Below are positions 1 to 5,748 of a stretch of 5,748 nt of DNA, piece by piece (position 1 is the stretch's first letter; each line of letters starts with the position of its first letter). This DNA comes from Thermoproteota archaeon (lineage in GTDB: Archaea > Thermoproteota > Methanomethylicia > Culexarchaeales > Culexmicrobiaceae): positions 1-5,748 of the forward strand of contig QMQW01000027.1 in assembly GCA_003650625.1 (NCBI GenBank), given 5' to 3'. A program made the translations under genes and the position numbers. The notes under the pieces were generated by a model. The model was not told the DNA's origin and did not search any database. It was given only the letters and a program-made list of their open reading frames with translations.

Positions 1-393
1 ATGTCCCACTGGACTTCGGCTAAAATACGTATTAAAAATCCCGATAGGGAACTTCTTAAGTTGGCTTTGCAAGCAATTGCCAAGGAGCTGGGTGTTCAAA
101 CGGTTGCCGAAAACTACATGGTTATAGGCTATAACGGAAGGCAACGTTGTCCATTTGCCATCCCATTAAAGTTACCGTACGGCAACGGTTACGGAGTTTA
201 TATTGATGAAAATGGCGAAGTTAGGGTGGTTGTTGACGACCACGGTGCCCCCCTAAGTGCTCGGGAGTTTGCCAACAAGCTGACACAGTATTATACAACC
301 TTAGCTGTTCAAGTGGCAGCTCAGCAACTGGGATTCATAGTTACTGATGCTCGACAAACACCGCAAGGCATAGTTTTAGATCTAACGAGGTGA
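1..393 (+). CDS. DUF1257 / Ycf35-like protein
   Basis: The 130-aa product matches the pattern I know for the DUF1257 (Ycf35) family: an MSH-aromatic start (MSHW), a K-I-R-I strand, a helix (residues 17-30), a G-Y-N-G turn (43-46), a strand region with Y-G-V-Y-I-D-E-N-G (64-72), an acidic VVVDDHG segment (77-82), a helix with LTQYY (94-98), then AAQQLGF (106-112) and a C-terminal strand. Length is normal for the family. The molecular role of DUF1257 is not established; its members are commonly encoded beside DUF2997 proteins and Ycf46-type AAA ATPases, and both occur here. The start codon is the first base of the window, so no upstream signal is visible, but the MSHW start agrees with the family's usual N-terminus. 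The stop is only 4 nt before the next start, so the two genes are almost certainly co-transcribed. Confidence 0.85.
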   Translation: MSHWTSAKIRIKNPDRELLKLALQAIAKELGVQTVAENYMVIGYNGRQRCPFAIPLKLPYGNGYGVYIDENGEVRVVVDDHGAPLSAREFANKLTQYYTTLAVQVAAQQLGFIVTDARQTPQGIVLDLTR

Positions 394-395
394 TT
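387..395 (+). promoter_or_regulatory. Shine-Dalgarno site for the DUF2997 gene
   Basis: GAGGTGATT overlaps the stop codon of the preceding gene. Its GAGGTGA core ends 4 nt before the ATG at 398. The same nine bases recur before the third gene (581-589), which supports both as real initiation sites in a translationally coupled series. Confidence 0.7.
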
Positions 396-397
396 AG

Positions 398-604
398 ATG
401 CCTACCACAAGAGTTCTGATTAGAAATGATGGGAAGGTCGTTATTGAGGGCATTAACTACGTCGGTAACCAATGTCTAGTCGATCTCCAGAGGCTCCAAG
501 ATATGCTGAAGTCTTTGGGTGTAGAAGTTAACATTGAAGCACAGAGGAAAAAACCCGAAGCCCAATTGGCAACTTCTGAAGAGGTGATTCAGCATGAAGG
601 TTAA
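398..604 (+). CDS. DUF2997 family small protein
   Basis: The 68-aa product fits DUF2997: a short basic strand (RVLIRNDGKVVIEG, residues 5-18) with the N-D-G turn, then G-x-x-C-L (C26, L27) opening a helix (DLQRLQDMLKSLG), and an EV-x-I-E strand (43-47). The region after about residue 50 is a polar tail ending in a helix-like acidic stretch. DUF2997 proteins are small and uncharacterised, and are typically adjacent to DUF1257 genes, as here (4-nt gap). I infer that the two products work together, perhaps as adaptors or subunits of the AAA ATPase encoded at 1576-3273. The conserved cysteine is present, but nothing in this sequence shows whether it is catalytic, modified or structural. The 3' end overlaps the next gene by 11 bp. 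Confidence 0.8.
   Translation: MPTTRVLIRNDGKVVIEGINYVGNQCLVDLQRLQDMLKSLGVEVNIEAQRKKPEAQLATSEEVIQHEG
581..589 (+). promoter_or_regulatory. Shine-Dalgarno site for the 48-codon gene
   Basis: GAGGTGATT lies inside the end of the DUF2997 gene, its GAGGTGA core 6 nt before the ATG at 594. It is identical to the site at 387-395. This is the main non-protein evidence that the very short frame at 594-740 is translated. Confidence 0.65.
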
Positions 605-740
605 CGTAATCTCCATAACCAAGGACAGATTGCTAATCTACCATGATGACGATGATGACAAGTTTCTAAAGGATCTCCAAAAGATTCTTGAGAACTACGG
701 CGTTTACGTTGAAAATGTTTCCTCAACCCGATGCGGTTAA
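594..740 (+). CDS. 48-aa small protein, likely shortened DUF2997-like paralogue
   Basis: An ATG at 594 opens a 48-codon frame ending with TAA at 738-740, overlapping the DUF2997 gene by 11 bp. A strong Shine-Dalgarno sequence sits 6 nt upstream. The product has the same order of elements as its neighbour: a beta-like start (VNVISITKDRLLIY), a turn, then a helix F-L-K-D-L-Q-K-I-L followed by G-V-Y-V-E-N. This parallels C-L-V-D-L-Q-R-L-Q and G-V-E-V-N-I-E in the DUF2997 protein. It differs in having five consecutive aspartates (residues 18-22) where the neighbour has a loop, in lacking the cysteine before the helix, and in having a short tail with Cys47 and a terminal Gly. I infer a tandem duplication that has diverged. 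It could instead be an unrelated short coupled peptide, but the overlap, the ribosome site and the similarity together favour a real gene. Confidence 0.65.
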   Translation: MKVNVISITKDRLLIYHDDDDDKFLKDLQKILENYGVYVENVSSTRCG

Positions 741-745
741 ATAAT

Positions 746-758
746 CTCTCCTTTTTTC
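746..758 (+). terminator. Candidate poly-T transcription end after the three-gene unit
   Basis: A pyrimidine-rich tract with six consecutive T (752-757) starts 6 nt after the stop codon at 740. Archaeal RNA polymerase commonly terminates at such T runs without a hairpin. The tract is short, so read-through into the gene at 804 is possible. Confidence 0.35.
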
Positions 759-803
759 TGTGGTATATCCTACGCAAGTACAATATTCTTTAGCGGTGAG
801 AGC

Positions 804-1469
804 ATGTCTCGTATTTCTCGTATTCAAGTCCAGACCCAGACTCGATTTCTTGATTTAGTTTATTTGCTTGAGAAGAAGAAGGAAGAAATTCAGCAGCTTT
901 TAGAGCGGAGAAAGCAGTTCAAGTCTAATATGCCAGAGTATAGGAGGCTTAGTAGGGAGATAAGAAAGCTTGATCGTGAAATACTGTGTATTGAAGATAA
1001 GATGAGGGAGATAGCGATAAAGGAAGTTAGAGAATTAGAGTCGGTAATCGATGATTTTGTGAATAAGATGAAGAGTGATTTCAAGAACTGCTATGACATA
1101 GTGACGCTTGAGAAGGATGTGTTACCACATTATTGGAGACCTATAACGCTATATGATTTGTACGGCATCTTCAAGAGGTGTGGTTTGCCAATAGATGAGC
1201 TGGGGAGGTTTAGGGCTGGGGTTGTTATTAGATTCCACTGGTTTAATGGAGATGTGCAGCAGATTGAGGAGCTTGTTAAGTATGTTAAGGAGAAGAAGCC
1301 AAGCGATGTCGTGGTTATCTTAAGCTTCGATAGGAGACCCGATCATTCGGAGGCTGCATATCAGCTATCAAACATGGTGGCGTTCGAGAGAAAAATACCC
1401 TTCCAATATGACGGCGTCTATATACATGTACAAAATATAGTTTTAGATCCAGAAATCATAATTCTCTAG
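804..1469 (+). CDS. Uncharacterised coiled-coil protein with C-terminal alpha/beta domain
   Basis: I do not recognise a family for this 221-aa protein. Residues about 15-92 are strongly helical and highly charged, with leucine/isoleucine spacing typical of a coiled coil (LLEKKKEEIQQLLERRK, then REIRKLDREI and EVRELESVIDDF). A proline at 44 may break it into two helices, so a helical hairpin is possible. Residues about 97-221 look globular: T-L-Y-D-L-Y-G-I-F-K (115-124), strands AGVVIRFHWF and DVVVILSFDRRPD, and a strand-rich end (VYIHVQNIVLD). There is no signal peptide, membrane segment or obvious catalytic motif. GGTGAG at 795-800 serves as ribosome site 3 nt before the ATG. It lies between the DUF1257/DUF2997 genes and the ATPase on the same strand, so I infer a partner or adaptor of that ATPase. 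No close equivalent of the 14-bp promoter element precedes it; a weak TATATC at 763-769 is at a suitable distance. Confidence 0.8.
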   Translation: MSRISRIQVQTQTRFLDLVYLLEKKKEEIQQLLERRKQFKSNMPEYRRLSREIRKLDREILCIEDKMREIAIKEVRELESVIDDFVNKMKSDFKNCYDIVTLEKDVLPHYWRPITLYDLYGIFKRCGLPIDELGRFRAGVVIRFHWFNGDVQQIEELVKYVKEKKPSDVVVILSFDRRPDHSEAAYQLSNMVAFERKIPFQYDGVYIHVQNIVLDPEIIIL

Positions 1470-1525
1470 GGGAGCGATAGACATCTTCTATTCCCTTATT
1501 TTTGTAGCACCTACTACTTAAGTAC

Positions 1526-1539
1526 AAAAACTTTTTATA
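1526..1539 (+). promoter_or_regulatory. Archaeal BRE/TATA promoter of the AAA ATPase gene
   Basis: The A5-C-T5-ATA element resembles an archaeal purine-rich BRE plus TATA box. Transcription starting about 25 nt downstream of the box would begin near 1560, giving a very short leader that still contains the AGGTGA site at 1563-1568. An identical 14-bp copy precedes the AbrB-like gene (3284-3297). Confidence 0.7.
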
Positions 1540-1562
1540 CCCCGATTTCCTAACCATATACT

Positions 1563-1568
1563 AGGTGA
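1563..1568 (+). promoter_or_regulatory. Shine-Dalgarno site deciding the ATPase start
   Basis: AGGTGA is only 1 nt from the ATG at 1570 but 7 nt from the in-frame ATG at 1576. The second spacing is functional, so 1576 is the preferred start and the protein begins MSHVFGF. Confidence 0.65.
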
Positions 1569-1575
1569 AATGTGT

Positions 1576-3273
1576 ATGTCCCATGTTTTCGGTTTTAAAT
1601 CCAATCTTAGTTTTGATTTTTTGCTTAAGGAGTTCTGGGTTAAGAGGCTTGCTCAAGCCTCAACAGTTGCGATCTTTAAGACTTCGGATCCCAAGAGGCT
1701 GGAGCCCTTCATTAGGTTTGTTAAGTCCAGCTATGATAGGCTCATAAGTAAGGGTTCTGTGTCGTCTTACGAGATTTTTGTCTATAGGGTTTGGTCGGGA
1801 CTGTATAGGGTGAATGTTAAGGCTGATGAGGTTGAGTATGAGCCGGTGTCGTTGAGGTTTCAAGTTCAGCTTCCGTCTCCGCTTCTTATACAGCAACCGC
1901 AACAGCAAATTAGGGATTTGACGGCTGCTTTAACGTTTGTTGACAGCATGATGAATCAGCGTGAAGGTATTGTCCTTATTCTTTGGGGTCTTTTCCCGAA
2001 GAAGGGCAATCCACAAGAAAACGATAATCTTCTGGCTTTCCTCCGTAATGCGATATTTACGGACTCCTACTATGCCAAGTTTCATACGGTGGTGGTGTTT
2101 ACGGACACTCCGGAGGCTATTATTGACGACGACACGTTGAAGCACAGCATTTTGGTTGATGTGCCCCCGTCGTTCGATAATGAAAGAAGGCAGATCATCG
2201 AGAACATAGCCAAGACCTTTGGTCTTAGCAACAATTTCGACGCCCTAGTGGAGGCTACAAGGGGGCTGAATATTCATGAAACAGAGTCTGTTGTCCTAGA
2301 GTCCTTCTTCAAGTATAGGAAGCTTGATCCGAAAGTGATGACGCAGTTCAAGTACGAGATAGTTAGAAAGTCCGGAATCCTAGACATCGAAGAACCAACC
2401 TACGGGTTCGAAGCTGTCGGCGGATACGGAATAGTCAAGGACTTCATATTGAACAACGTCATTAAGGTGCTGAGGAACCCGAAGAAGGCTGAAAGGCTCG
2501 GGCTTAGACCGCCTAGAGGAATCCTACTGTTTGGGCCTCCGGGCACCGGTAAAACATGGTTTGCCCGTGCCCTTGCTAAGGAGCTTGGTCTACCATTCTT
2601 AAGGATGAGAACCGAGAAGATCGTCAGCAAATGGTACGGCGAAACCTCTAGAAACATAGCCAAGGCAATAGAAATTGCTGAAGCAGTTGCCCCATGTGTG
2701 ATGTTTATTGACGAAATAGACCGTTTCGGTAGACGTGGACATTTGAGTGAGCACGAGGAATCCCGTAGGGCATTCAGCATTCTCCTAGAGTGGCTTGGCG
2801 ACTCTCGGAGAAAGACCATAGTTATTGGCACGACCAATAGACCCGAGGATCTGGATGAGGCTTTTCGTCGTGTTGGACGTTTCGACTACTTGATACCGTT
2901 CCTTTACCCAGATGTCGATGCTAGATTGGAGATCCTTAAGGTGCATACCAGCATAGTTAGGAAGGTGCCTTTGGCGGAAAATGTTAATCTTAGAGCTGTT
3001 GCCTCTATGACGGAGCTATGGACTGGTGCGGAGCTTGAAGAACTTGTCCTACGTGCAGCTAGAAGGGCTCTTAGAGAGAATGCTGATGTTGTCAATATGA
3101 AGCACTTCCAAGAAGCCCTAGCAACGTTTAGAATAAACCGTGAGCAAAGGTGGCGTCAGCTAGAGCACTATCTGAAGTTGACAGAAGAGTACACTAATGA
3201 TGCGGAGTTCCTCAAGAAGCTCAAAGAGACCACGAAAAGCCGTGCCGAAGTAGCGAAGCATCTGCTAGAGTAA
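1576..3273 (+). CDS. Ycf46-like AAA+ ATPase with degenerate N-terminal ATPase half
   Basis: The product is 565 aa from the preferred start. The C-terminal half is a complete classical AAA module: V-G-G-Y-G at 281-285, Walker A GPPGTGKT at 320-327, pore loop K-W-Y-G at 352-355, Walker B with D379 and E380, sensor 1 N421, arginine-finger region RRVGRFD at 431-437, sensor 2 region T-G-A-E at 483-486, then a helical lid and charged C-terminal tail. The N-terminal 250 residues have strand patterns of an ATPase fold (VAIFKTSD, GIVLILWGLF, HTVVVFTDTP) but no Walker A. The linker with R-K-S-G at 264-267 just before the AAA domain, and the inactive-plus-active layout, are what I know from the Ycf46 family; that family-level call is from recall. 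It probably forms a ring that remodels a protein substrate in the cytoplasm, with DUF1257 and DUF2997 products as likely partners. The substrate is unknown. A generic Cdc48/proteasomal ATPase is less likely because there is no second active AAA domain or OB/N-domain. Confidence 0.85.
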   Translation: MSHVFGFKSNLSFDFLLKEFWVKRLAQASTVAIFKTSDPKRLEPFIRFVKSSYDRLISKGSVSSYEIFVYRVWSGLYRVNVKADEVEYEPVSLRFQVQLPSPLLIQQPQQQIRDLTAALTFVDSMMNQREGIVLILWGLFPKKGNPQENDNLLAFLRNAIFTDSYYAKFHTVVVFTDTPEAIIDDDTLKHSILVDVPPSFDNERRQIIENIAKTFGLSNNFDALVEATRGLNIHETESVVLESFFKYRKLDPKVMTQFKYEIVRKSGILDIEEPTYGFEAVGGYGIVKDFILNNVIKVLRNPKKAERLGLRPPRGILLFGPPGTGKTWFARALAKELGLPFLRMRTEKIVSKWYGETSRNIAKAIEIAEAVAPCVMFIDEIDRFGRRGHLSEHEESRRAFSILLEWLGDSRRKTIVIGTTNRPEDLDEAFRRVGRFDYLIPFLYPDVDARLEILKVHTSIVRKVPLAENVNLRAVASMTELWTGAELEELVLRAARRALRENADVVNMKHFQEALATFRINREQRWRQLEHYLKLTEEYTNDAEFLKKLKETTKSRAEVAKHLLE

Positions 3274-3283
3274 GTCGGAAAAT

Positions 3284-3297
3284 AAAAACTTTTTATA
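3284..3297 (+). promoter_or_regulatory. Archaeal BRE/TATA promoter of the AbrB-like gene
   Basis: This is a 14-bp perfect copy (A5-C-T5-ATA) of the element at 1526-1539, lying 33 nt before the GTG at 3331, against 36 nt for the ATPase gene. A second T/A-rich box (TTATTTATA, 3309-3317) lies between it and the start and could be an alternative TATA box giving a leaderless transcript. Confidence 0.65.
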
Positions 3298-3330
3298 TTT
3301 CAACCGCATTATTTATACTTGGTGGTTTAG

Positions 3331-3690
3331 GTGCACATATTGCTTCCCGTACCCAATACCCACTATGCTGTGACGAAGAAAGTGATTAGGGTAGGGAAGT
3401 CCCTCTCGATAGTTCTTCCCTCCAAGGTTTCGACAACCCTCAACATCACTAGCGAATCAACATTCTACGTGTATGTTGAGAATGGGAAAATAGTATATTC
3501 GCTTAGTAAACCGAGAGGTGTCAAATGCAGAAGGGTCAAGGCAAGAATCCAAGCAAGACACGGAACCAAGGAGTACTACGTCGTGACTTTGCCGACCGAG
3601 TTCTCTCTAAAGCTAGGCATTAAGGAGGGTTCGCTTGTTCTGCTTCTTCTTACGGATAAGGGATTGGTAGTGGAGTCTCTTAAGCCCTAG
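3331..3690 (+). CDS. Protein with two tandem AbrB/MazE-type (SpoVT-AbrB) domains
   Basis: The 119-aa product contains two similar swapped-hairpin domains. Residues about 16-58 read K-V-I-R-V-G-K-S-L-S-I-V-L-P, then a helix and TFYVYVENGKIVYSL; residues about 68-117 read VKARIQARHG, YYVVTLPTEFSLKLGIKEG, and SLVLL with GLVVESL. The second matches the canonical family pattern (strand, L-P-x-E, helix, L-G-I-K-E-G, strand) very well; the first is more diverged. Family members bind DNA as dimers, often as antitoxins or transition regulators, so one chain may supply a whole dimer-like DNA-binding unit. No partner toxin gene is visible. The start is uncertain: GTG 3331 has GGTGG at 3321-3325, TTG 3340 has AGGTG at 3329-3333, and GTG 3370 would begin right at the first domain but lacks a ribosome site. 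Sharing a promoter element with the ATPase suggests co-regulation, possibly by this protein itself. Confidence 0.8.
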   Translation: MHILLPVPNTHYAVTKKVIRVGKSLSIVLPSKVSTTLNITSESTFYVYVENGKIVYSLSKPRGVKCRRVKARIQARHGTKEYYVVTLPTEFSLKLGIKEGSLVLLLLTDKGLVVESLKP

Positions 3691-3696
3691 TTTTTT
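3691..3696 (+). terminator. Poly-T transcription end after the AbrB-like gene
   Basis: Six T residues directly follow the TAG stop, with more T-rich sequence to 3713. Archaeal transcripts often end at such tracts. The gap to the convergent minus-strand gene is only 22 bp, so the two transcripts may end within each other's coding ends. Confidence 0.5.
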
Positions 3697-3712
3697 AGTG
3701 TTCGGATTTATT

Positions 3713-4087
3713 TTATAGTTCTTTAGCCCATTTTCTAAGGATTTCTATGGCTTCTTTGTTTCTTCCTTCGGCTATTAGCATGAGGGCTTTGGCTACGTCT
3801 CTGTGCCATGGTGAAGCCTTGGCGGATAGGGAGGAATCTACTGGGACGGCGAATTTTCGGTAGTCGTACCATCCAATTATGATTGCTAATGGAATGTAGA
3901 CTAGGAAGAAAGTTATGGCGAAAGCTGTTAGACTAGAGAACAGCATTTTCAACATTGGCACATACTCTACCAGTAGCCTATACTGTATGACGACGAAGTT
4001 TGCAAATGAAATGAAAAACACTAGATATGTGCCGTGGGCTCTGCGGAAGTAAGCCCACCACCTAAGTATTCTGTCCTTATTAAGCAT
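3713..4087 (-). CDS. Small two-helix membrane protein of a glycosylation operon
   Basis: The preferred start is the ATG at 4087, giving 124 aa; it overlaps the glycosyltransferase stop by 8 bp and has AGGGTGG 6 nt upstream. A longer frame from 4162 would run 83 bp into the glycosyltransferase gene and add a non-hydrophobic segment, so I reject it. Residues 1-17 are basic and aromatic (RILRWWAYFRRAHG), residues about 20-40 and 50-73 form two membrane helices (YLVFFISFANFVVIQYRLLV; TAFAITFFLVYIPLAIIIGW), and residues 94-124 form an amphipathic helical tail (WHRDVAKALMLIAEGRNKEAIEILRKWAKEL). The basic N-terminus before helix 1 suggests both ends face the cytoplasm. I know no function; from memory, similar small proteins with an RRxHGxYL segment occur in other thermophilic archaea. 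Its place after a glycosyltransferase suggests a role in membrane-associated glycan synthesis. Confidence 0.75.
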   Translation of the reverse strand: MLNKDRILRWWAYFRRAHGTYLVFFISFANFVVIQYRLLVEYVPMLKMLFSSLTAFAITFFLVYIPLAIIIGWYDYRKFAVPVDSSLSAKASPWHRDVAKALMLIAEGRNKEAIEILRKWAKEL

Positions 4088-5294
4088 TTTCAACCACCCT
4101 AAGGAATTTTGTTGTAAACCTACGTTCGCTAAAGCATGGTGCTCTGCTAAGCGATTTTTCATGGTAGATTCTCCACAGCTTAGGTTCCGTTATCAGCCTA
4201 TCTATGTGTTCTGCAAGTTCCTCCACGGAATCAAACGACAAGCCGTAGTTGCCGTAGTCTGTTATGTCCTCGTAGGGGCCTCCTCTCCTATGAACCACTA
4301 CGGGGCAGCCGGCGGCCATTCCCTCAACAACTGCTATGCCGAAGTGCTCACCTACCGTAGCGTGTACGAAAACCTTCGATGAAGTAGCCAACTTTACAAG
4401 CTCATTTCTGGGTGCATTAGGGTAGAGCTCTACCTTAACGCCTTTCTCTTTAGCTTTCTTTTCCAGCCATTTCTTGTATGGTATCGATGTGGGGATGAGT
4501 CCGCCTATCACCCTTAAGATCGGCTTGGTCTCGCTAAGGGCAATAGCGTCTATTACATTTTCAATTCTTTTTTCACGGGATATTCTGCCTATCATGACTA
4601 CGGCGTTGTCTCTTTCCTCAAACGGCTTCTTTCCATAAGGCTCGAAATCATCGGTCTTTATCGGTGGGTGAAGAACTACTGGTTCTCCATCCCAAAGCAT
4701 CTTCGTTAGTCTAGCGATGTATCTTGAATTAGCCATTACAACATCCGCTATGTCAAACGGGTTGTCCCTAGCAACTTTACCGTAGAACTTCAAGAACACT
4801 TTAAAGTATAGTTTCCAAAGCCCTTTCTCGTACTTCTTATGGTATTCTTTAGCATCTCTAATGTATTTCTCATACAGTTTTTTGTCACCGCTTTGCTCAA
4901 GCTCCAGAACCTTTATAGCGTGAAATGGGAAGTGAATGTACTCTAGCAGTTTGAAGCCAAGCTCCTTCTTCAGCTTGATTATTGGCTTGTAGAGTTCATT
5001 ATCAACAAACACTACATCCGGCTTCTCCTTCTTAATGGCCTTCTTCAAAGGTATGAAGAACCCCAGTCTCTGATAAATACCGAATAATGGTAGCATTTTC
5101 GGTAGCAAAACATACTTCCTAATTTTTCCAAGGTCTAGGTTGAACCATTCCCTATACTTTTTCTTGTCGAATCCGAAAGCTGATGCAACAGCTACTTCAT
5201 GTCCCGCTTCTAGGAGTGTTTTTACAGCATAGGCGTTAACTAGTTCTCCTCCACCTACTCTGCTCCATAAATGGTGTCCCACAACTACCTTCAT
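4080..5294 (-). CDS. GT4-type (group 1) glycosyltransferase
   Basis: The 404-aa product has the two-lobed GT-B layout. The N-terminal lobe begins with the strand MKVVVGHH and a glycine-rich loop G-G-G-E at 14-17 for acceptor/phosphate contacts. The C-terminal lobe has the GRISREKR motif at 236-243 (group 1 family, contacting the nucleotide diphosphate), and the E-x7-E motif with E316 and E324 in EHFGIAVVE, typical of retaining GT4 enzymes, followed by G-M-A-A-G-C-P-V-V. The length is normal. It transfers a sugar from an activated donor, which I cannot identify, to a lipid, glycan or protein acceptor; no membrane helix is evident. The start at 5294 is preferred over the GTG at 5303 because AGGTGA at 5300-5305 sits 5 nt before the ATG and includes that GTG. 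Neighbours are a methyltransferase upstream (59-bp overlap) and a membrane protein downstream (8-bp overlap), fitting a cell-surface glycan operon. Confidence 0.9.
   Translation of the reverse strand: MKVVVGHHLWSRVGGGELVNAYAVKTLLEAGHEVAVASAFGFDKKKYREWFNLDLGKIRKYVLLPKMLPLFGIYQRLGFFIPLKKAIKKEKPDVVFVDNELYKPIIKLKKELGFKLLEYIHFPFHAIKVLELEQSGDKKLYEKYIRDAKEYHKKYEKGLWKLYFKVFLKFYGKVARDNPFDIADVVMANSRYIARLTKMLWDGEPVVLHPPIKTDDFEPYGKKPFEERDNAVVMIGRISREKRIENVIDAIALSETKPILRVIGGLIPTSIPYKKWLEKKAKEKGVKVELYPNAPRNELVKLATSSKVFVHATVGEHFGIAVVEGMAAGCPVVVHRRGGPYEDITDYGNYGLSFDSVEELAEHIDRLITEPKLWRIYHEKSLSRAPCFSERRFTTKFLRVVENA
4094..4100 (-). promoter_or_regulatory. Shine-Dalgarno site for the membrane protein gene
   Basis: On the minus strand AGGGTGG lies 6 nt before the ATG at 4087, inside the end of the glycosyltransferase gene. 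It supports the shorter start and translational coupling through the 8-bp overlap. Confidence 0.6.
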
Positions 5295-5748
5295 GTTTTT
5301 CACCTAGAACTATGAGGGTATCTGATAGGAGGAGAATAAATATTTTAAAAATAACTCTTAGCTTGTGGGGTAGAAGGGTTCCTACTAGCGTGGGTGTATG
5401 CGGTTTTAGCCCGACCTTTTTGATCATTCTCCAGAGCCTTATAAGGTTAAATGTATGCTTATGGTCTGGGTCAAGATATGCATTTCTAGACAGAAAGTTC
5501 GGGGTTTCAATTGTAACCATGCCTCCCCTTTTCAGCACCCTTCTACACTCCCTCAGAAACCTAAGTGGATCCTCCAAATGCTCTATGACGTGAGCTGCAT
5601 ACATTTCGTCTATTGCATCATTTCTTAACGGTAGGTTTTGGGCATCGGCAACTATCCAGTAGCACCTACTACATTCAAAGTCCGGAGGCTTAATGTCCAA
5701 ATATACTACATCATAGTCTGGACAGTAGTGGGGATTAAACATGTATCC
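5236..5748 (-). CDS. SAM-dependent class I methyltransferase (type 11), 5'-truncated by window edge
   Basis: The visible frame runs to the end of the window and stays open beyond the ATG at 5742 (Gly-Tyr precede it), so the real start is outside. Numbering from that Met, Y-L-D-I at 14-17 is the end of strand 2 with Asp16 as the expected ribose contact, A-D-A-Q at 32-35 is the adenine-side acidic loop, H-V-I-E-H-L-E-D-P at 51-59 is the post-strand-4 motif, and VLKRGG at 69-74 precedes strand 5. The glycine-rich motif I should lie just upstream, which is why the ATG at 5742 cannot be the start. D-P-D-H-K-H-T-F at 91-98 is typical of methyltransferases in glycan or lipid pathways. The acceptor is unknown. 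The C-terminal 20 or so residues lie in the 59-bp overlap with the glycosyltransferase and look like an unstructured extension past the usual last strand (TLIVLGEK). Confidence 0.85.
   Translation of the reverse strand, partial: GYMFNPHYCPDYDVVYLDIKPPDFECSRCYWIVADAQNLPLRNDAIDEMYAAHVIEHLEDPLRFLRECRRVLKRGGMVTIETPNFLSRNAYLDPDHKHTFNLIRLWRMIKKVGLKPHTPTLVGTLLPHKLRVIFKIFILLLSDTLIVLGEKHEGSCGTPFMEQSRWRRTS
5300..5305 (-). promoter_or_regulatory. Shine-Dalgarno site deciding the glycosyltransferase start
   Basis: On the minus strand AGGTGA lies 5 nt before the ATG at 5294. The alternative GTG at 5303 lies within this site, so it is very unlikely to be the start. Confidence 0.65.

Follow-up and report, generated by a model that had tools for sequence, protein, structure and literature searches.

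The Ycf46, Ycf35 (DUF1257) and DUF2997 proteins are widespread, and the module that they form is known but unsolved; here we analyze a new archaeal variant of this module that is encoded in a 5,748-nucleotide stretch of a Thermoproteota archaeon genome (contig QMQW01000027.1, positions 1 to 5,748; hereinafter, the window). According to excerpts of the respective papers, cyanobacteria possess a DUF2997-ycf35-fed7 cluster in which fed7 encodes a ferredoxin (PMC4284462), ycf35 and ycf46 show habitat-linked loss in red-algal plastids (PMC5940233), and DUF2997 occurs in archaea and some viruses (PMC13131479). Other studies, as cited in an excerpt of PMC7496141, found that loss of Ycf46 lowers the activity of the carbonic anhydrase EcaB and that the Ycf46 operon is responsive to iron, sulfur and oxidative stress, and Cys269 of Slr0374 (Ycf46) is listed in a table of measured cysteines (excerpt of PMC13214033). 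We found no mechanism for Ycf46, Ycf35 or DUF2997 in the literature passages that were retrieved.

The genes for DUF1257 (positions 1–393), a DUF2997-like protein (398–604) and a Ycf46-type AAA+ ATPase (1570–3273) lie together on the plus strand of the window, an assertion of the initial annotation that is borne out by the coordinates and by Pfam matches or relatives; all six plus-strand open reading frames (ORFs) that it listed are found where it placed them. As in the cyanobacterial cluster, the DUF1257 and DUF2997 genes are adjacent (excerpt of PMC4284462), and cyanobacterial plasmids likewise carry both together with the ATPase gene. Unlike the cyanobacterial cluster, the window contains no ferredoxin recognizable with Pfam, and the archaeal ATPase belongs to a clade of its own (support 100/98). 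The comparison with cyanobacterial ATPases covered those of two plasmids, which match the archaeal profile with E values of 1e-50 and 7e-54. Among viruses, Acidianus tailed spindle virus (Bicaudaviridae) encodes AAA+, DUF1257 and DUF2997 proteins in a row (gp08-gp10, annotated as an AAA+ ATPase and hypothetical proteins), and the same three genes are clustered in the Rhizobium phages RHph_I4 and L338C and the phages Aeromonas HJ05 and Pseudomonas PA_L9.

The window differs from all these loci in a further plus-strand gene (594–740) for a microprotein of 48 amino acids (aa) that ends in Cys-Gly. The two cyanobacterial plasmid loci contain no Cys-Gly-ended ORF of at least 30 aa, the two spindle-virus loci have an ORF of 77–80 aa in the place of the microprotein, with HKCGDS near its end (gp11 of Acidianus tailed spindle virus, annotated with 76 aa, has the zinc-finger-like end ...HKCGDSR), and the phage modules include other partner proteins and no short Cys-Gly protein. 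The microprotein, for which no description was found in the literature searched (most subscription journals being outside its scope), is the best new point of the locus and the one most worth testing: it offers a residue-level handle on a widespread machine, and the archaeal set is small enough to be purified as a whole. Throughout the text, L, G and P numbers denote loci, genomes and proteins, respectively.

A Cys-Gly-ended microprotein in archaeal loci

The microprotein ORF begins inside the DUF2997 gene, 10 bases short of where the stop codon of the latter ends, and its best Pfam match has an E value of 0.18. In 26 loci, with DUF2997 recognized by profile or annotation, we listed by position alone all ORFs of at least 35 aa near the DUF2997 ends; 11 of these loci are archaeal or group with archaeal ones, and one of the 11 (L034) is untestable, with the contig ending 90 bases after the DUF2997 gene. 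A 40–52 aa protein ending in Cys-Gly is encoded after DUF2997 in each of the 10 testable loci, and in nine of them the ORF overlaps the DUF2997 stop, starting 3 to 43 bases before its end. In the tenth, L004, an 80-aa ORF intervenes and the Cys-Gly protein begins 240 bases after DUF2997. The set includes two IMG/VR contigs, L044 and L045, whose host is not known and whose ATPases fall with those of L004, L030 and L005 in the tree. Left outside the count are L005, where the contig ends inside DUF2997, L054 and L055, which are the same contigs as L044 and L045, and L003 and L031, where the microprotein lies near the end of a contig that carries no DUF2997 and was recognized by its Cys-Gly end; the last two are kept in the 12-row alignment and the codon table. 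As a background, 13 of the 8830 ORFs in 80 IMG/VR loci end in Cys-Gly, two of the 13 being the L054 and L055 microproteins; in a count of 235 ORFs of at least 80 aa, none has this end.

The microproteins of the archaeal branch (40–53 aa) are 15–29% identical to the window copy, and Cys47 and Gly48 alone are invariant throughout the 12-row alignment, two rows of which were picked by that very end. The Cys is encoded by TGC in six copies and by TGT in six, and each of the four Gly codons and each of the three stop codons is used; because the Cys, Gly and stop codons all vary, the constraint acts on the protein. The structural model consists of a beta hairpin, one helix and the tail. The initial annotation described this gene as a second mini-DUF2997-like gene. 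The gene is real, and its kinship with DUF2997 is possible: comparison of the profiles gives an hhalign probability of 86% (pairwise E value 5e-6), the microprotein lacks the GxxC motif, and none of the 12 members matches DUF2997 in Pfam. The defining C-terminal Cys-Gly was overlooked.

Two other Cys-Gly ends deserve mention. In the phage PA_L9, a 116-aa ORF after DUF2997 ends in CG, which we take to be a chance occurrence since the Rhizobium and Aeromonas phage counterparts end otherwise. Two similar viral contigs (L059, 5201–5392; L065, 5001–5192) encode a 63-aa Cys-rich protein with an FCG end just upstream of a Ycf46-type ATPase; this protein was not counted because it precedes the ATPase and does not follow DUF2997.

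The DUF1257 and DUF2997-like proteins

The 130-aa product of the first gene matches DUF1257 (PF06868) with 29.8 bits against a cut-off of 22.2. Its Met-Ser-His N-terminus is conserved: Ser2 is invariant in 57 of 57 aligned rows as well as in a 61-row alignment, and Met1 and His3 are kept in at least 90% of the rows of both. The DUF2997-like protein (68 aa) is so named because its score against PF11211 (16.2 bits) falls under the cut-off of 24.1; its gene adjoins that of DUF1257, and 12 of 19 aligned relatives match PF11211 at E ≤ 0.01. The Gly and Cys of its GxxC motif (G23 and C26) are present in 19 of 19 rows, an invariance that is partly due to selection, given that the alignment was collected by profile and partly by GxxC itself. 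The conserved N-terminus of DUF1257, the inner Cys of DUF2997 and the C-terminal Cys of the microprotein suggest, at the level of sequence, one shared site to which all three proteins might contribute.

A tblastn search of phages and plasmids with the window DUF1257 and a search of phages with the L044 DUF1257 both produced zero matches, and the phage and plasmid relatives surfaced only via the ATPase and via a phage DUF1257.

The AAA+ ATPase

The ATPase (567 aa) consists of an N-terminal half (residues ~1–270) and an AAA module (~273–540) that matches PF00004 (E value 2e-38) and AAA_lid_3 (PF17862; 3e-11). The residues G322, G325–K328, D381 and E382 are invariant among 15 aligned ATPases, that is, the nucleotide-binding motifs are intact. 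The AAA module is about equally similar to PAN, Cdc48 and FtsH (180–186 bits, all far below the cut-offs), and therefore the N-terminal halves were compared, with a nine-row profile of window ATPase relatives as the hhalign query. This profile matches the group of L030, L004, L005, L044 and L045 (probability 100%, E value 2e-48, 258 columns) and a phage-type set (99.3%, 4.8e-20, 243 columns) that comprises 11 phage, viral-contig and archaeal ATPases, the last from two genomes, with DUF1257 found next to six of the 11, whereas three Cdc48-type proteins match less strongly and over a shorter stretch (94.5%, 8e-8, 151 columns). By sequence profiles, the N-terminal half thus resembles the phage-type, largely DUF1257-linked ATPases more than the Cdc48 type. 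With Cdc48/p97-type ATPases, the window protein shares the AAA module and the lid; it differs from them in having one conserved ATPase module, in the weaker and shorter N-terminal match and in belonging to a separate clade.

The tree of 63 AAA domains, which is unrooted, drawn with a midpoint and built without PAN, FtsH and Vps4 references, places the window ATPase within its own 15-row clade (100/98). The Cdc48-type rows, so labeled by their two-domain architecture, make up a separate 14-row clade (100/99) that includes four L062-type viral rows. Being unrooted, this tree neither proves nor refutes a closer kinship of the window ATPase with the phage type, and the Ycf46-type assignment is based on the N-terminal half and the gene neighbors. 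A grouping with Cdc48, which the initial annotation named as a refuting outcome, is contradicted by the N-terminal half and is not settled by the AAA-domain tree.

Two relatives of the ATPase, P0064 (978 aa) and P0070 (990 aa), have the AAA module interrupted by intein-type domains (PF14528, PF14890), inserted, by visual inspection, at Walker A in P0064 and at Walker B in P0070.

Distribution of the module

Relatives of the ATPase were found in 8 GTDB loci. In searches by taxon, the phylum of G001 yielded them in 5 of 398 genomes, the class of G002 in 4 of 59, the phylum of G002 in 5 of 294, and two further classes in 1 of 12 and 3 of 229; the thresholds differed between these searches, the sets overlap, and the starting genomes are included. 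We count 15 archaeal ATPase loci, the window among them and L008 and L035 taken as one; L036, which groups with the Cdc48 type, the Cdc48-type loci L016–L020 and repeat stretches of the same genomes are outside this count. DUF1257 is encoded within 3 kb of the ATPase in seven of the 15 (the window, L001, L002, L004, L005, L030 and L033). In genome G003, DUF1257 and DUF2997 lie on one contig, which ends 90 bases past DUF2997, and a separate ATPase contig starts shortly before a Cys-Gly microprotein. Two contigs of one genome thus break off within the module, one closing with the DUF2997-bearing stretch L034 4130–4429 and the other, with the microprotein and the ATPase, opening with L003 1–332, and may be neighbors.

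The recurrence of the trio, which the initial annotation mentioned for bacterial and cyanobacterial clusters, extends from archaeal contigs to viruses and plasmids. Its viral carriers are Acidianus tailed spindle virus, a closely similar IMG/VR contig, the Rhizobium, Aeromonas and Pseudomonas phages and several more IMG/VR contigs; the plasmids that carry it come from Geminocystis, Pseudanabaena and Bacillus. The IMG/VR scan with the full ATPase alignment (A4), of which the best 80 of 233 relatives were considered, yielded a DUF1257 or DUF2997 match in 12 of the 80 loci; the scan with A3, also a full ATPase alignment, yielded 9 loci, and scans of viral contigs with the alignments of the ATPase N-terminal half (A1) and DUF1257 (A2) gave zero confirmed relatives. 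This recurrence in viruses, phages and plasmids suggests that the module is a transferable tool rather than a photosynthesis gene set.

In the Pseudanabaena galeata plasmid (L137, 1–5515), the DUF1257, DUF2997 and ATPase genes are consecutive and accompanied by GrpE and Hsp70-family genes.

Promoter-like copies and a dyad motif

An identical 14-mer, AAAAACTTTTTATA, is located ~30 bases before the start of both the ATPase gene (1526–1539, plus strand) and the AbrB gene described below (3284–3297, plus strand). By its look, this element is probably a TATA-type promoter, and L001 has AAAACTTTTTATA at the matching position. Further upstream, L001 has GTAGCACCTGCTAC, the window counterpart of which is the dyad GTAGCACCTACTAC (1504–1517), 5' of the promoter-like element of the ATPase gene. 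The dyad has a core YASSTR flanked by GTAG and CTAC (palindromic form GTAGYASSTRCTAC), and a second exact copy lies at 5659–5672 within the methyltransferase ORF of the other strand; two dyad sites occur in the window versus none in 200 shuffles.

Searching 11 genomes for the dyad, we found it in three (G001, G238 and G797) and in none of the other eight: G001 has two sites, both on the 3.7-kb cassette contig, G238 has two, one of them on the cassette contig, and G797 has 11 over five contigs of 3.0–7.9 kb, the cassette contig among them. With the reversed pattern as a control, each strand of G001 had one site and the other genomes had none. The dyad genomes carry the ATPases nearest to that of the window among those searched (L006 being judged by eye from P0044). 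Some sites are located 15–30 bases before start codons and others within ORFs, and the dyad contigs L029 and L153, from two genomes, have three protein pairs in common. In our reading, the dyad could mark a mobile element equipped with a DNA-binding protein of its own. SegB centromere-like sites were considered for this motif and rejected, as its core differs from TCTAGA-S-TCTAGA, the SegB core as printed in an excerpt of PMC12284271.

Proposed mechanism and alternatives

We propose, with a probability of roughly 40%, that this locus holds an archaeal form of the Ycf46-Ycf35-DUF2997 module, probably carried by a mobile element, and that small adaptor proteins, among them one with a functional thiol tail, would assist an AAA+ remodeler. 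Proteins of this AAA type assemble into ring-shaped remodelers, and the ATPase, with its N-terminal half free of ATP-binding motifs, would be such a ring. DUF1257, DUF2997 and the Cys-Gly microprotein might make up a small adaptor complex through which a client is loaded onto the ATPase or presented to it. The tail of the microprotein may provide a free thiol end that serves as a thiol or metal ligand or as a reversible covalent link, and would act jointly with two other conserved elements, the Cys of DUF2997 and the Met-Ser-His N-terminus of DUF1257. A role of thiol chemistry would be consistent with the ferredoxin gene in the cyanobacterial DUF2997-ycf35-fed7 cluster and with a thioredoxin/ferredoxin-thioredoxin reductase (FTR) fusion encoded beside the module in L004.

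Several observations weigh against this scheme. DUF1257 was not seen in seven of the 15 archaeal ATPase loci: in L003, L006, L007, L029 and L031 one flank of the ATPase gene is cut off by the contig end after at most ~1 kb, and in L032 and L053 no DUF1257 is seen despite at least 5 kb of flanking sequence on both sides. In the one remaining locus, L035, the small genes of the trio are ~11 kb away from the ATPase gene. The short Cys-Gly protein is absent from all the other 15 loci of the positional survey (two spindle-virus, four phage and nine other viral loci, partly redundant owing to the near-repeats L037/L056, L059/L065 and L040/L042), and five bacterial plasmid loci, three of them with DUF2997, contain zero Cys-Gly-ended ORFs of at least 30 aa. 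Given that spindle viruses, phages, viral contigs and plasmids bear the trio without the microprotein, the latter is not essential to the core. The confidence of the microprotein model is middling (predicted local distance difference test 74.6, predicted template modeling score 0.49). The midpoint root of the AAA-domain tree separates the window clade from the phage-type clade (18 rows, 100/98), and a 39-row group (85/88) unites the window and Cdc48-type rows. Finally, the small size of the dyad contigs is weak evidence of an element because several of the dyad genomes are fragmented metagenome-assembled genomes (MAGs).

Among the alternatives, it is possible, albeit unlikely, that the Cys-Gly tail is a tag and the microprotein a substrate, a disposable timer or inhibitor whose C-terminus the ATPase would grip for unfolding or extraction. 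AAA+ unfoldases commonly engage protein ends, and the restriction of invariance to Cys47 and Gly48 in the 12-row alignment (again, with two rows chosen by their end) is in keeping with a tag. However, the end tags known to us are hydrophobic rather than Cys-Gly, none of the nine window proteins matches a protease above the Pfam cut-off, and pulling on an end would need no free thiol.

Another function for the microprotein is suggested by its likeness to TATA-binding proteins (TBPs). In a comparison of the microprotein profile with 177,635 sequences of solved structures, TBPs rank first (1mp9, E value 1.8e-9), and the top five matches are all TBPs, presumably archaeal ones. Among 4414 ORFs of at least 80 aa, the top places go to one ORF, present in two copies, that overlaps a microprotein gene, and TBPs come next. 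The score withstands the dropping of any row and is reached by none of 200 column shuffles. Such a match would fit a tool with which a virus or plasmid remodels the transcription or replication complexes of its host, with the microprotein mimicking part of TBP, and a TFIIB gene and a topoisomerase gene are located near the module in L032 and L003, respectively. We nevertheless consider this scenario improbable. Even the best single stretch scores a modest 26.7 bits (independent E value 4e-5), the hhalign probability is 77.5%, and the match covers the hairpin-helix second half of a TBP repeat, a common arrangement; two full TBP repeats are not present in the 48-aa microprotein. DUF2997 and DUF1257 show no such match, their TBP scores being reached by 26 of 200 and 17 of 60 shuffles, respectively, and were dismissed as TBP-like, and bacteria have no TBP yet keep the trio. 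Common descent, mimicry or a common small fold could each account for the microprotein-TBP likeness.

The genes could also form an ordinary chromosomal cluster of unrelated neighbors. The window contains glycosyltransferase and methyltransferase genes as well, and L002 lies on a 213-kb contig amid genes that by eye resemble those for carbamoyl-phosphate synthase, acyl-CoA dehydrogenase and RFC. This explanation appears rather doubtful to us considering that the module was found in just 5 of 398 and 4 of 59 genomes searched, starting genomes included, that the dyad is confined to three of 11 genomes, and that some dyad contigs have genes in common.

A bolder extension of the remodeler-and-adaptor scheme, which we regard as a long shot, would make the microprotein a new class of small archaeal proteins that become covalently joined to a partner or client through a C-terminal thiol. 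DUF1257 and DUF2997 would assist in charging it, the Ycf46-type ATPase would release it, and the whole machine would serve the archaeal viruses and plasmids that encode it for acting upon their host. Parallels for such a tail are the Gly-Gly tail of ubiquitin-like proteins and the penultimate Cys of the DsrC arm. A defense or counter-defense system of the IetAS kind is very unlikely: although the PADLOC IetA models match the AAA module (E value 2e-42) and the distribution is patchy, the match begins at residue 294 and so involves the AAA module only, the NCBIfam IetA model scores 130.7 bits against a cut-off of 510, there is zero subtilase among the nine window proteins by Pfam, and viruses themselves carry the set.

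Neighboring genes

The initial annotation joined all six plus-strand genes of the window in one functional unit, a proposal for which we find no support, and the neighborhoods of the 804–1469 and 3331–3690 genes, which it suggested as a test, showed no conservation, though several contigs are short. The gene at 804–1469 (plus strand) encodes a 221-aa orphan, coiled-coil-like judging from weak profile matches, the only ones obtained; the only protein found among 188 candidates is the orphan itself, and a comparison with the 3162 ORFs of 23 related loci gave nothing better than E = 0.03. Its position is occupied by an unrelated 177-aa gene in L001, an unrelated 198-aa gene in L003 and nothing in L002. 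With zero detectable homologues, we reject the orphan as a member of the module. The gene at 3331–3690 (plus strand) encodes a 119-aa tandem AbrB/MazE-type protein (two stretches of the MazE/AbrB domain, 40.9 bits against a cut-off of 24.7), a candidate local regulator for which no relative was found in the 23 related loci (best E value 0.97); its association with the module is thus not conserved, and its membership is unsupported. The opposite strand of the window encodes a glycosyltransferase and a methyltransferase (Pfam), together with a 149-aa protein of no recognized family. The closest named relatives of the window proteins are proteins of Thermoprotei archaeon MAGs.

A family of helical proteins, with no member in the window, is encoded near the module in L003 (3399–5186), L004 (8661–9611), L030 (8138–9088), L032 (7398–8231), L044 (8318–9487) and L045 (8105–9238), and also on the dyad contig L152 (5674–7239); two of the seven have a weak match to DUF3150. 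The gene follows the microprotein in L044 and L045 and immediately precedes the ATPase in L032. The thioredoxin/FTR fusion near the L004 module (9649–10407, Pfam) has a relative on the dyad contig L153 (4338–5193, E value 4e-5). A PCNA-like reading of L004 3439–4215, made by eye, was discarded, with zero Pfam matches at E ≤ 0.01. In L033 (10955–13120), from a genome of the class of G002, genes for a resolvase-family recombinase and DprA are located near the module along with a MazE/AbrB-type ORF (Pfam), a set that suggests an integrated element. The MazE/AbrB-type ORF of L033 encodes 52 aa, scores at the Pfam cut-off, lies ~0.6 kb from the ATPase on the opposite strand and looks unrelated to the AbrB protein of the window.

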